Positions 19,812 through 26,239 of a stretch of 37,802 nucleotides of DNA are shown here, in pieces. The notes beneath the pieces were generated by a model. The model was not told the DNA's origin, ran no database searches, and saw only the letters and a program-made list of their open reading frames with translations. The position numbers and the translations under genes were made by a program. The stretch is from Galbibacter marinus (GTDB lineage: Bacteria > Bacteroidota > Bacteroidia > Flavobacteriales > Flavobacteriaceae). The stretch is from the NCBI RefSeq assembly GCF_000300875.1, contig NZ_AMSG01000024.1, forward strand, positions 1-37,802, read 5' to 3'. The number at the start of each line of letters is the position of its first letter. Position 1 is the stretch's first letter.

Positions 19812-19842
19812 AAACCAAATTAAATAAGAAACTTACTTTTGT

Positions 19843-19850
19843 CAAAAATA
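19843..19850 (-). promoter_or_regulatory. -7 promoter element for the Crp/Fnr gene
   Basis: The minus strand reads TATTTTTG (TAnnTTTG), 31 bp before the ATG at 19811, predicting transcription from about 19837. Confidence 0.5.
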
Positions 19851-19864
19851 TTAAAATTTGCAAC

Positions 19865-19884
19865 TTACGAAAACGCTATCGTAA
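19865..19884. promoter_or_regulatory. Dyad at the Crp/Fnr promoter
   Basis: TTACGA-N8-TCGTAA, perfect 6-bp arms in a 20-bp site. Its centre (19874.5) is about 38 bp upstream of the predicted start of the Crp/Fnr transcript, covering the -33 region. Crp/Fnr dimers bind such dyads, so autoregulation is a reasonable inference. Confidence 0.45.
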
Positions 19885-19956
19885 AATCACCGTATAAAAC
19901 AACATCTGAAGCATAGTTTTAATTCTGCAAAACTTAAATCTTTCAAATTCAATACT

Positions 19957-20069
19957 ACACCCCCTTAAAATAACACGATGCTCTACATAAAACTATCAAT
20001 TACCTAACACACCCCCTATTACATCGGTTTATTTCCTTCAAAAACCATTAAACACAACACACACCCCCT
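19957..20069. promoter_or_regulatory. Three ACACCCCCT motifs at 52-bp spacing upstream of gltB
   Basis: The nonamer ACACCCCCT occurs at 19957, 20009 and 20061, exactly 52 and 52 bp apart, in otherwise AT-rich DNA; the sequence between copies is not conserved. A 52-bp period is close to five turns of B-DNA, so the sites lie on one face of the helix. They lie between the Crp/Fnr gene and gltB, about 175-285 bp upstream of the likely gltB start point. A cooperative protein-binding array acting on gltBD is the simplest reading, without direct evidence of the protein. Confidence 0.55.
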
Positions 20070-20230
20070 TGTTTTTACAAAATCACCCCGAGATAATTAC
20101 TCAATTAACAATATGATAACATAGACCTGATTTCATTTATTATATTGGGTTTTTTACAAGGATTTATTCGTAACGTTCAATTAATTACAACATTATCAGC
20201 GAAACCTTAATAATTCCTTAATTTTCTTGA

Positions 20231-20238
20231 TATTTTTG
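20231..20238 (+). promoter_or_regulatory. -7 promoter element for gltB
   Basis: TATTTTTG (TAnnTTTG) ends 18 bp before the ATG at 20257. The expected -33 TTTG is absent at 17-23 bp upstream, as might be seen at an activator-dependent promoter. The remaining leader (20070-20230) is AT-rich without obvious structure. Confidence 0.5.
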
Positions 20239-20256
20239 TGGAAATCACACTACCAT

Positions 20257-23200
20257 ATGAAGCCAATAAAACAAGGACTGTACTCTCCAGAGTACGAACA
20301 CGACAATTGCGGTGCAGGTTTTATCTGTAACCTAAACGGAGTAAGAACCAATGACATCATTCATAAAGCACTGGATATTCTGATACGACTTGAACACAGA
20401 GGAGCAGTAAGTGCGGATGGTAAGACTGGTGATGGGGCAGGTATATTGATCGACATTCCTCACGACTACTTCAAAGAAGTTTGTGATTTTGAAATCCCCC
20501 AAAGCAAAGAGTATGCTGTCGGAATGCTTTTCCTTCCAAAATCAGATAACCAATCAAAACTTTGTAAGGACATTTTTGAGCAAAATGTCAAGCGACAGGG
20601 TTTAAATATTATCGGATGGAGAGATGTCCCTGTTGATAAGAGTTGTATTGGCACTATTGCAGCAGAAACAGAGCCGACTATAAAGCAGGTTTTTATCGGA
20701 AAAAATAATCAAGAATTATCCGAGCAAGCCTTTAATGCTAAACTTTTTGCAGCAAGAAAAATCGCAGAACACGCCATCCTAGATTCAAATCTAGCAGAGG
20801 CTGAATATTTCTATTTTGCAAGTCTCTCAACCAATACCATAATATACAAAGGACTACTGATGCCACAAGACATCAGCCGCTATTATATTGATTTGGAACA
20901 ACCAGAGGTGGTTACCAAACTCGCCTTAGTACACCAACGTTTCTCCACCAACACCTTCCCCACTTGGGATTTAGCACAACCTTTTCGCTATATGTGTCAC
21001 AACGGAGAAATCAACACCCTAAAAGGAAACCTAAGTAGAATGAAGGCTCGTGAAGAACTCTTTAAAACGGAGCTTTTCGGAGAGATTATAAATGAGGTTC
21101 CTCCAGTGGTCTTAGAGGGAAAATCAGATTCTGCCTCCATGGACATGGTTTTAGAATTGTTATTACAAACAGGACGCTCCCTTCCAGAGGCCATGATGAT
21201 GATGGTACCTGAGGCCTGGGAGAAACACCTATCGATGAGTGATGATAAAAAAGCCTTTTATGAATACAATGCTTGCATCATGGAACCATGGGACGGACCC
21301 GCATCCATCCCGTTTACTGACGGAAATTATATAGGAGCTCTACTGGATAGAAATGGATTAAGACCATCACGTTATACCGTTACAAAAGACGGCTTTGTTA
21401 TCATGTCCTCTGAAACAGGAGTCATTGATATCGAACCTGAAAATGTAGAACTTCACGGTAGGTTGGAGCCGGGTCGTATGTTCCTTGTGGACATGAATGA
21501 AGGTCGTATCATCGGAGATCAGGAGGTCAAGAAAAGTATTGTTTCTAAAAGATCTTACAGAGCGTGGTTGGATGAGAATCTATTACACTTATCCAATATC
21601 GATTATACAGGAAATAAGACCCCTGTTGAAAAAGAAGATTTCGTAACCCGTCAAAAAGCATTTGGATATACGGAAGAAGACATCAAAACGCTTATTATTC
21701 CTATGGCTACCCTTGGGAAAGAAGCCATCGGATCCATGGGTACTGATACCCCACTGGCCGTTTTATCCGACAAATCCCAATTGTTGTTTAACTACTTTAA
21801 ACAACTATTCGCTCAGGTTACCAATCCACCATTGGATGGTATACGAGAAGAAATCGTAACCGATATCAGTCTTTGCATTGGAGGGGATAAAAACATCTTT
21901 GACATCATTCCAGAACAATGTAAAAAGTTAAAGATTCAAAACCCAGTCATCTCCAATGAAGATTTAGATAAAATAAAATACATCGATCACCCAGATTTTA
22001 AAGCGACTTCTATTTCAATGCTCTACGACATTGACAAAGGACTCAATGGTCTCGAGGCGCGTTTAGATGCAATGGTTGATGAGATTGCCTCTGCGATCGA
22101 TAACGGCAGTAATATCATTATACTCTCCGATAGAAATATCTCCAAAGAAAAGGCTCCTATTCCTTCAGCGCTAGCCTGTTCATTTGTGCATCACGAACTT
22201 GGACGTAGAGCTAAAAGATCTTCAATTGGAATAATCATAGAATCAGCTGAACCAAGAGAACCGCATCATTTTGCTTTATTATTCGGATATGGCGCTAGTG
22301 CAATCAACCCATATATGGTTAATGAACTGATCGACAAACTTGTCAATGATGGAGAAATCACGACCACTTTCGAAGAAGCTGTATTGAACTACAACAAAGC
22401 CATCGGAAAAGGTATTGTGAAGATTATGAATAAGATCGGAATCTCTACCCTGCACTCCTATCGCGGAGCTCAGATATTCGAAGCTCTTGGATTAAACAAA
22501 AAATTCGTCGATAAGTATTTCACCAATACCCCAACTAGGATCGAAGGTATTGGAATCTATGAAATTGAAAAAGAAATACAAAACAAACATCGTAAGGCGT
22601 ACACCCAAGACAGTAATTACGCTAAACTCGATTTAGAGATTGGAGGAGATTACCGATGGAGAAGAAACGGGGAGCGTCATATGTTCAACCCCACCACTGT
22701 TGCAAAATTACAACAAGCCGTACGAAGCAATAAGTTCTCAAGCTACAAGCAATATGCTGAAATGATCAACGAGCAGAGTGAGCGCCTAATGACACTTAGA
22801 GGAATGTTTAAATTCAAAAGTCTAAATCCTATTCCAATTGAAGAAGTAGAGCCATGGACAGAAATTGTTAAACGTTTCAAAACTGGTGCTATGTCCTTTG
22901 GTTCCATTAGCAAAGAGGCACATGAGAATTTAGCCATTGCCATGAATCGTATAGGAGGAAGAAGTAACTCTGGTGAAGGAGGGGAAAACCCAGATCGTTT
23001 CCATAAAGACCTCAACGGAAATTGGAGAAACAGTGCTATTAAGCAAGTTGCTTCAGGACGTTTCGGGGTATCTATAAATTACCTGTCAAATGCCAAGGAA
23101 ATACAAATTAAAATGGCTCAGGGTGCTAAACCGGGAGAAGGTGGACAATTACCTGGACCAAAGGTAAATCCAGACATTGCCAAAACCAGAAATTCCACCC

Positions 23201-24777
23201 CATATGTAGGGCTTATATCCCCACCTCCACATCACGACATCTATTCGATTGAGGATTTGGCACAACTTATCTTTGACCTTAAAAATGCCAATAGAGAAGC
23301 AAGAGTAAATGTCAAATTAGTATCCGAGGTAGGTGTAGGAACTATTGCAGCTGGTGTGGCAAAAGCAAAAGCAGATGTGGTACTAATATCAGGATTTGAC
23401 GGAGGAACAGGAGCCTCTCCACTGACTTCCTTACGCCACGCAGGTTTGCCATGGGAACTAGGTATTGCAGAGGCGCAACAAACACTTATACTTAATGATC
23501 TTAGAAATCGAATCGTTGTTGAGTGTGACGGGCAATTAAAAACAGGAAGAGATGTGGCTGTAGCTTGTCTACTGGGAGCAGAAGAATTCGGGTTCGCCAC
23601 CGCACCGCTTGTTGCCTCAGGTTGTGTAATGATGCGCGCTTGCCATCTAAACACCTGCCCTGTTGGAATTGCCACCCAGGATCCAGAGTTGCGTAAAAAC
23701 TTTAAAGGAAGTCCCGAGCACGTAATTAACTTCATGTACTTTGTGGCCGAAGAATTACGACAAATCATGGCCGATCTTGGATTTAGAAGTATTGAGGAAA
23801 TGGTGGGTCAAAGTCAAAAATTAGACATGAACACAGCCATTGAGCATTACAAAGCACAAGGCATTGATTTATCAAAGATTCTTTACAAGCCAAGAGTTTC
23901 AGAAGATGTAAAACTATACAATACTCAAAAGCAAGATCATCATTTAGAAGGTGTATTGGATTTTGAAATTCTAAGGCAGGCTCACCCTGCGGTGTACCGT
24001 AAGGAGAAAATGACCTTAGATTTCCCAATTACCAATATTAACCGTACCACAGGAGCTATCTTAAGCAATGAAATTTCCAAAATACACGGAGAAAAAGGAC
24101 TACCAGAGGACACCCTTCATCTAAACTTTAAAGGAGCTGCTGGGCAAAGCTTTGGTGCATTTGCAACCAAGGGGCTTACCATGACAGTAAGCGGAAACAC
24201 CAATGATTATTTTGGTAAGGGACTCTCAGGAGCAAAATTAATTGTCAAGGCTCCAGAGGAAGCAACCTTTAAACCAGAGGAGAATGTTATTATCGGAAAT
24301 GTAGCCATGTATGGTGCTATCAATGGAGAGGCCTATATCAATGGAATTGCAGGGGAGCGTTTCTTGGTTAGAAACTCAGGTGCCAAAGCCGTAGTAGAAG
24401 GCATTGGAGATCACGGTTGCGAATACATGACTGGAGGAATTGCAGTTATACTAGGTAAAATAGGTCGAAATTTCGCCGCTGGAATGAGTGGAGGAATCGC
24501 CTACATCTACAATCCAGATCACGCACTAGACACAAACGATATCAACATGGAAATGGTTGCCTTTGAATCTCTCAGTGAACAAGATTTACAAGAATTAAAA
24601 AGACTAATCACAAATCATTTAGAATACACCCAAAGTCCCCTAGCTGGTAGAATACTGAGTGATTGGTTAGCAAATAGTAAAAATTTCATAAAAGTGATGC
24701 CAACCGAATATAAAAAGGCACTGGAATTATTAGCCGAACAAAACACTGAAGTTGAACAAGAATTAACAATAGCATAA
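20257..24777 (+). CDS. gltB: Glutamate synthase large subunit
   Basis: 1506 residues from ATG 20257 ([22 protein letters not shown]); a start ten codons upstream is in frame but would overlap the predicted promoter. Forms glutamate from 2-oxoglutarate and glutamine with GltD. Order: class II glutamine amidotransferase domain with nucleophile Cys18 (HDNCGAGF, after a short propeptide), central domain, FMN-binding synthase domain ([54 protein letters not shown]), 3Fe-4S cysteines ([22 protein letters not shown]) and the C-terminal GXGXG beta-helix ([34 protein letters not shown]). Stop and gltD start are one base apart, so translation is coupled. Confidence 0.97.
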
Positions 24778-24778
24778 G

Positions 24779-26239
24779 ATGGGAAAACTAAGAGGATTTT
24801 TAGAATACGAGAGAGAACAAGAAACTACAATTGCTGTTGATAAGCGTCTTAAGGATTACAAAGAATTCACCAAAGAATTAAATCCACAAGCACTGAGTAA
24901 TCAAGGAGCACGATGCATGGATTGTGGAATCCCATTTTGCCATAGTGGATGCCCCTTGGGTAATTTAATTCCCGATTTCAACGATGCAGTCTATAAAAAC
25001 AACTGGCAAAAGGCAATCCATATACTTCACTCAACCAACAATTTCCCTGAGTTTACTGGTCGATTATGCCCTGCACCCTGTGAATCAGCTTGTGTTTTAG
25101 GGATCATTCAACCTCCAGTATCGATAGAGCTTATTGAAAAATACATTGTTGAACGCGGTTTTAAAGAGGGCTGGATAAAGGCAAATCCACCTAAAAAACG
25201 TAGCGGAAAAACCGTTGCAGTTATTGGATCAGGACCTTCTGGACTTGCAGCAGCTCAACAGTTAAACCGCGCTGGACATATGGTAACAGTCTTTGAGAGA
25301 GATAAAAAAGTAGGTGGACTTTTGCGCTATGGTATTCCGGATTTTAAATTAGAAAAAAGTGTTATTGATCGAAGAATTTCAATCCTAGAACAAGAGGGAA
25401 TCGAATTTAAAACAGGTGTTCATGTTGGTGTTAATTACAAAGTCGAAGACTTACATGACTTTGACGCTGTGGTTTTATGTGGAGGAGCTACCAAAAGAAG
25501 AGGACTTCCAATCCCTGGAACCGACGCTAAAGGAGTCGTACAAGCGATGGAATTCTTAAAAAGAAATAACCAAGTTGTAGATGGTCAAGCGGAAAGTTCA
25601 GCTGATTTAAATGCCAAAGGAAAAGATGTTATTGTAATTGGAGGTGGTGATACAGGTTCTGACTGCGTAGGAACTTCCAATCGTCATGGCGCTAAATCAG
25701 TGACTAATTTTGAAATCATGCCAATGCCTCCGCAGTACAGAAGCGAGGAAAATCCTTGGCCATATTGGCCCTTTACCCTTAAGACAAGTTCTTCTCATGA
25801 AGAAGGAGTTGAAAGGAATTGGAGCATTTTGACAAAAGAATTTGTAAAAGATGCCCAAGGCAACCTTAAAGCTATTAAAACTGTAGAGGTAAAATGGGTT
25901 AAAATTCCAGGAGAACGACCTCAATTACAAGAGGTTGATGGCACTGAGAAAGAGTGGCCATGCGACTTGGCATTACTAGCCTTAGGATTCACTGGTCCAG
26001 AAGAAACCCTTAGTGAACAGTTAGGATTGCATACCGATCAACGAAGCAACATTAAGGCCAGTAATAATTATCAAACCAACATACCACACATATTTGCAGC
26101 AGGAGATATGCGAAGAGGACAATCCCTAATTGTTTGGGCAATATCTGAAGGAAGAGAAGCTGCATATCATGTAGATCATTACTTAATGGGGGCATCCTCA
26201 TTACCAACTAAAGAAAAAGGAGATTTACCAGCCGCATAA
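24779..26239 (+). CDS. gltD: Glutamate synthase small subunit
   Basis: 486 residues. Supplies electrons from NADPH (or NADH) to GltB. The N-terminal cysteine region for Fe-S clusters is visible (GARCMDCGIPFCHSGCPLGNLIPDFN; GRLCPAPCESACVLG), followed by the FAD Rossmann motif VIGSGPSGLAAAQQLNRAGH, the GGLLRYGIPDFKLEK block, the NAD(P) motif VIGGGDTGSDCVGTSNRHGA, and the C-terminal FAD block IFAAGDMRRGQSLIVWAISEGREAA. It begins one base after the gltB stop. Two hairpins follow the gene, marking the operon end. Confidence 0.97.
   Translation: MGKLRGFLEYEREQETTIAVDKRLKDYKEFTKELNPQALSNQGARCMDCGIPFCHSGCPLGNLIPDFNDAVYKNNWQKAIHILHSTNNFPEFTGRLCPAPCESACVLGIIQPPVSIELIEKYIVERGFKEGWIKANPPKKRSGKTVAVIGSGPSGLAAAQQLNRAGHMVTVFERDKKVGGLLRYGIPDFKLEKSVIDRRISILEQEGIEFKTGVHVGVNYKVEDLHDFDAVVLCGGATKRRGLPIPGTDAKGVVQAMEFLKRNNQVVDGQAESSADLNAKGKDVIVIGGGDTGSDCVGTSNRHGAKSVTNFEIMPMPPQYRSEENPWPYWPFTLKTSSSHEEGVERNWSILTKEFVKDAQGNLKAIKTVEVKWVKIPGERPQLQEVDGTEKEWPCDLALLALGFTGPEETLSEQLGLHTDQRSNIKASNNYQTNIPHIFAAGDMRRGQSLIVWAISEGREAAYHVDHYLMGASSLPTKEKGDLPAA

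Follow-up and report, generated by a model that had tools for sequence, protein, structure and literature searches.

The question raised by this locus of Galbibacter marinus is what three identical short words, set at exactly equal steps, are doing upstream of a glutamate synthase operon. The window analysed here is the whole 37,802-nucleotide stretch of contig NZ_AMSG01000024.1. The 9-mer ACACCCCCT is present in the window only as the left arms of the three sites listed in the table, three copies against 0.25 expected, and three copies were reached in 0 of 100 shuffles. In dinucleotide shuffles of positions 19812-20256, three or more ACCCCC were found in 2 of 20,000, and three at an equal step (10-149 bp) in 0 of 20,000, so the exact positions and 52-bp stepping given in the preliminary description are confirmed. 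It is proposed here, with a probability of roughly 0.85, that the array is a control region bound by dimers of one putative transcription factor through which Flavobacteriales control nitrogen assimilation.

Table. Features of the gltB locus and of genes elsewhere that bear on the array.
Feature	Location	Strand	Basis or remarks
Site 1	19957..19979	+	Left arm ACACCCCCT at 19957-19965; right arm (AGGGGT in aligned relatives) lost
Site 2	20009..20031	+	Left arm ACACCCCCT at 20009-20017; no right arm, aligned relatives likewise
Site 3	20061..20083	+	Left arm ACACCCCCT at 20061-20069; right arm (AGGGATTA-like in relatives) lost
Conserved block AATTAACAATATGATAA	20103..20119	+	Between array and gltB promoter; alignment
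Sigma-A-like -7 box of gltB, TATTTTTG	20231..20238	+	Sequence, alignment with relatives
gltB, glutamate synthase large subunit	20257..24777	+	ATG at 20257
gltD, glutamate synthase small subunit	24779..26239	+	Pyr_redox_2, Fer4_20; directly after gltB
Crp/Fnr-like protein P0001	19215..19811	-	Divergent from gltB; cyclic-nucleotide-binding match below the Pfam cut-off
Host porin copy	L099:14513-15583		PF07642
Lrp/AsnC-type candidate	G000:C17:21191-21661		
Lrp/AsnC subfamily gene	L349:10192-10662	-	

The gene downstream is taken to be gltB from its sequence and established knowledge. Beside site 3 there is an extra CACCCC at 20084. The block between the array and the promoter is strongly conserved, with AATTAACGATTTGATAATTTG at its place in most aligned relatives, and the gltB -7 box reads TAGATTTG in several relatives. 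The divergent protein P0001 gave no match to a helix-turn-helix family. In the array loci viewed, no Crp/Fnr-like gene was found beside gltB, where acyl-CoA dehydrogenase-like or porin genes occur instead, and P0001 is therefore probably outside the system.

What recurs is a palindrome of 20-21 bp, ACCCCT-N8/9-AGGGGT, with an A/T-rich middle. A multi-site operator had been suggested with the 9-mer as its unit, and the first part of this stands, but the 9-mer is one arm of the palindrome. A full example among the gltB relatives is ACACCCCTATTTTTTTAGGGGTGT, and the consensus of 72 arrays has ATACCCCTAAAATnATGGGGGT as its far site. In Sinomicrobium, GGGGT arms occupy the same aligned places as the C-rich arms elsewhere, as a dyad predicts. 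Spacing was counted in 19 glnK and 80 gltB upstream regions, chosen independently of the motif. Of 27 palindromes, 26 have a spacer of 10 or 11, and the centres of site pairs no more than 160 bp apart lie at 52-54 bp in 20/26 for glnK and in 13/35 for gltB, with a further 6 gltB pairs at 104-106 bp. The 52-bp step is retained, but the multiples of 10.4 bp that had been envisaged in general are replaced by a measured step of 52-54 bp. Midway between paired palindromes is a conserved A/T-rich element, TnATAAAAAT (alignment A1; L015:1536-1545 at the host glnK), which is possibly a site for the alpha C-terminal domain (alpha-CTD) or for bending.

The gltB comparison covered 80 loci from named genomes, the best 80 of 583 relatives. 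C-rich sites near -298, -246, and -194 from the gltB ATG recur in Galbibacter, Joostella, Sinomicrobium, Robertkochia, and Leptobacterium, although some genomes of these five genera have fewer than three of them. When aligned with two members of its own genus, the window retains all three left arms, and at sites 1 and 3 the right arms are gone; the window copy is atypical for the operator type. Arrays of ACCCC within 500 bp of gltB are absent in most of the remaining loci among these best 80 of 583 (mainly Flavobacterium and Salegentibacter), and a search of the array-less gltB upstream regions for another 52-bp palindrome found none. The motif and its spacing are thus present upstream of gltB in close relatives, as had been anticipated, but are missing in most of the more distant gltB loci viewed. 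A Joostella copy (L020) is terminator-like by eye and adjoins an upstream gene.

The host genome (3.57 Mb) contains 13 copies of the 9-mer, compared with 5 for the reversed control. Nine of the ten copies outside the window were viewed, that at C32 being left out; six are inside open reading frames and three are intergenic (L001, the glnK copy L007, and C16). Pairs of the form CACCCC-N30-60-CACCCC occur at 10 places, versus 0 for the reversed control, of which 2 are the window's own, 6 lie inside open reading frames, and 2 are intergenic. One intergenic pair (C13:12663) has a 53-bp step and stands directly before the P-II (glnK)-amtB operon, which is the kind of further locus that a genome scan had been proposed to reveal. 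At L016 (G000:C16:50623-50668), CACCCCCT and CACCCC lie 40 bp apart in an intergenic region flanking promoter-like sequence; its neighbours, named by reading the proteins, are presumably a ribosomal-protein-like gene and a polA-like gene. This pair with its 40-bp step is probably due to chance. The concern that the 9-mer might be frequent genome-wide without a spacing preference is not borne out, as it is rare and a genuine preference in spacing is seen in the related upstream regions.

The genes that carry such arrays are, for the most part, genes of nitrogen assimilation. A search for glnK in 21 named genomes located it in 19, of which 18 have site pairs upstream of it, mostly at about -117 and -65 by eye; the exception is Flavobacterium muglaense, with a profile match about 400 bp upstream. 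A strict pair pattern was found in 93/299 Flavobacteriaceae genomes. By hand count it gave 142 places in the family; with the reversed pattern as control there were 28, which means that part of the 142 arose by chance. Among the 110 Flavobacteriaceae array loci examined, 104 adjoin gltB, glnK/amtB, glnA, glnN, ald, or a porin gene, although the 80 array loci that were fetched had been selected for AT-richness, a choice that is biased towards real arrays. The neighbours are gltB at 33 loci, amtB at 31, glnK at 30 (nearly always the same loci as amtB), the GSIII gene glnN at 28, a beta-barrel porin at 26, the GSII gene glnA at 25, and ald at 10, and many of the arrays lie between two divergent genes and serve both. 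The six loci without a nitrogen neighbour comprise three inside open reading frames and three beside unrelated genes. The regulator of gltBD put forward in the preliminary description therefore keeps its gltB array, but a role confined to gltBD does not survive, the regulon being much wider.

The beta-barrel porin accompanies amtB and gltB as a member of the regulon, and it is possible that it serves as an outer-membrane channel for small nitrogen compounds. In the porin-bearing loci the array is mostly at the porin promoter, 313-344 bp from gltB. One further locus, L249 (G465, genus g127), has an array at about 1362-1612 between what we take, from reading the proteins, to be a urease operon and a urea-transporter-like (urtA) gene, which extends the regulon to urea use.

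A sequence-only profile was made from the 72 arrays, with the host sequence excluded; it comprises the same gene classes in other genomes. Run against the host genome, it gives its best match at glnK-amtB (E 1.4e-12), followed by the region between glnA and glnN (E 2.5e-6), with all other matches at E above 0.005. The window array scores 9-10 bits (E 0.03-0.1). In the named genomes the profile matches every one of the 19 glnK loci; none of them is a row of the profile, though near relatives of some may be. Upstream of gltB, a match was found in 7 of the 32 loci searched. Together with the low score of the window, this indicates that gltB copies are atypical, which counts against a strong role of the array in the host.

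Across the order, 86/246 genomes, other families included, have a profile match at E <= 1e-4. The loci viewed numbered 69 (29 given automatically and 40 picked from other families and genus g127), and 65 of them adjoin the same nitrogen genes, with one match inside a called amtB open reading frame; 4 do not. In g127, a large genus inferred to be Flavobacterium, 24 genomes have a match and at least 10 have none, and the g127 loci viewed mostly adjoin amtB or a porin gene. An earlier conclusion from the strict pattern, that the array is missing in Flavobacterium and confined to Flavobacteriaceae, is overturned by the profile matches in g127 and in other families. In a phylum scan of 395 genomes with the strict pattern, matches outside Flavobacteriaceae look like chance by sequence; this is no proof of absence outside the order, because the profile matches show that the pattern was too strict. 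The first reading of what kind of element this is was correct, and the element described at one promoter becomes, with these comparisons, a nitrogen operator that occurs across the order.

Promoter geometry provides insight into how the sites may be used. The -7 box was defined as TAnnTTTG with at least 5 of its 6 letters, and distance was measured from the centre of the near palindrome to the start of the box. A box lies 24-27 bp after the near centre in 28/30 glnK, 24/25 porin, and 24/25 glnA promoters, and twelve other four-base windows held 0-5 boxes for these three classes. The corresponding counts are 14/27 for glnN, 10/33 for gltB, and 3/10 for ald. The near palindrome overlaps the -33 region, where only 15 of the 76 glnK, porin, and glnA promoters with a -7 box have TTG. 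Between the near palindrome and the start codon, a -24/-12 element of the TGG..TTGC type occurs in 0/80 promoters of these three classes, and GG-N10-GC in 1/80. The excerpted text of a flavobacterial start-point mapping study gives the -7 box consensus and its place at -12 to -5 (PMC9723704), which puts the near centre at about -38 and the far one at about -90. The anatomy of the glnK, porin, and glnA promoters is, as judged by sequence, that of a sigma-A promoter whose putative activator replaces the -33 contact. In the window, about 158 bp separate the gltB -7 box from the centre of site 3, the three-site array lies about 158-263 bp upstream of the box, and by eye none of the three sites has a -7 box at 24-27 bp.

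The arrays are most likely the operator of a nitrogen regulon that would be bound by a dimeric activator. Each dimer would read one 20-21 bp palindrome, with successive dimers 52-53 bp (five turns) apart and on the same side of the helix. In the promoters of glnK-amtB, glnA, and the porin gene, the near dimer would be centred about 38 bp before the start point, take the place of the -33 element, and recruit sigma-A polymerase directly, like a class II activator, presumably under nitrogen limitation. The far dimer at about -90 may hold the C-terminal domain of the polymerase alpha subunit over the A/T-rich middle element. At the host gltB, the three-site array might act by bending, by looping, through a secondary start, or not at all. 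A cooperative regulator had also been suggested; a nitrogen operator is supported by the sequence comparisons, but cooperativity is plausible only.

Several other explanations have to be weighed against activation by such a dimer. The overlap of the near palindrome with the -33 region would also suit a repressor that covers this region and shuts the nitrogen genes when ammonium is plentiful, yet the -7 box is kept and TTG is scarce in the -33 region, the usual mark of activator dependence, and a fixed second site at -90 suits activation, so that repression appears unlikely. It is very improbable that the palindromes are RNA hairpins, that is, terminators or leaders, rather than protein sites. 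The Joostella copy does resemble a terminator, but at glnK, porin, and glnA the palindromes stand upstream of the -7 box at a fixed distance, and neither the 52-54 bp step nor the single-arm copies fit an RNA element. A doubtful but more local alternative concerns the host gltB copy, which may be a relic of an ancestral array that served a divergent porin gene, absent here, leaving arms that are now functionless. The position of the array in most porin-bearing loci speaks for this, as do the missing right arms of sites 1 and 3 and the poor profile score of the window. Against it, the three left arms are letter-perfect while the sequence between them drifts, and they have kept their place relative to gltB in several genera, in which the neighbour, when seen, is acyl-CoA dehydrogenase-like and not a porin.

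As for the protein itself, no recurring transcription-factor gene was found beside the 110 array loci by reading the proteins, and the regulator families Rrf2 and Lrp/AsnC were scanned. An Lrp/AsnC-type protein (see table) could be the regulator by analogy with Lrp at E. coli gltBDF. The candidate is present in 211/299 family genomes, and in about 14 genomes it lies, by eye and for no obvious reason, some 4-9 kb away from glnK-amtB. However, it is missing (E <= 1e-20) from the array-bearing genomes G641, G465, G035, G046, G064, and G037, which rejects it as the sole regulator, and no nitrogen link was seen among its immediate neighbours; its claim is accordingly slight. Among the first six genomes, it was present in 4/4 with arrays and in 0/2 Flavobacterium, a contrast that means little because arrays were later found in many inferred Flavobacterium genomes. 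It was found in 9 of 38 genomes chosen around the presence test, and two other Lrp types are present in 6/6 genomes compared. For Rrf2, a single protein is present in 2/4 array genomes, and members occur in both Flavobacterium genomes too. The Rrf2/IscR-type site is CCxYA-N7-TRxGG, which the N11 palindromes fit but the N10 palindromes do not.

We would give about even odds to the fuller proposal, that Flavobacteriales have their own global nitrogen regulator, with a site unrelated to those of NtrC, GlnR, AmtR, and NtcA, and with two dimers locked 52-53 bp apart at -38/-90 and alpha domains over the A/T-rich middle. Such a regulator would control both glutamine synthetases, glutamate synthase, P-II and ammonium transport, alanine dehydrogenase, the porin, and in places urea use. 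In the titles and abstract openings surveyed, from which subscription journals were largely outside, no nitrogen regulator or operator for Flavobacteriaceae or Bacteroidota was recognised, and the nitrogen operator array is likely new to the literature. The array offers the glnK or porin fragment as a bait, together with a set of target promoters and a geometry for their start points, and makes nitrogen sensing in an abundant marine and soil group a directly testable question.

Nitrogen control in other bacteria provides a useful comparison. The NtrC/sigma-54 system of Proteobacteria likewise uses upstream operators with several sites to control glnA, glnK-amtB, and related genes. However, its palindrome is different, with operator arms GCAC...GTGC that are not those of the 72-array consensus, and the arrays described here have a sigma-A -7 box at a fixed distance instead of -24/-12 elements. 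GlnR/TnrA in Firmicutes, AmtR in Corynebacterium, and NtcA in cyanobacteria share the content of the regulon, namely glutamine synthetase, the ammonium transporter, P-II, and glutamate synthase, but none of their site consensuses is known to fit ACCCCT-N8/9-AGGGGT. The NtcA operator is GTA-N8-TAC and that of Crp-Fnr is TGTGA-N6-TCACA; the 72-array consensus differs from both, and its arm spacing is N10/N11. Lrp at E. coli gltBDF binds several phased sites far upstream of gltB, a likeness to the host array, although some array-bearing genomes lack the Lrp candidate tested here. Tandem CRP promoters of E. coli combine a class II site with an upstream class I site, at -41.5 and -93.5. There too, two dimers (putative in the present case) lie 52 bp apart with the near one against polymerase, but the site sequence and arm spacing are different, and here the near centre is at about -38 on a Bacteroidota -7 promoter. 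The tandem class II feature, a near site in fixed register with the -7 box, is found at glnK, porin, and glnA but is not the rule at gltB, ald, and glnN.
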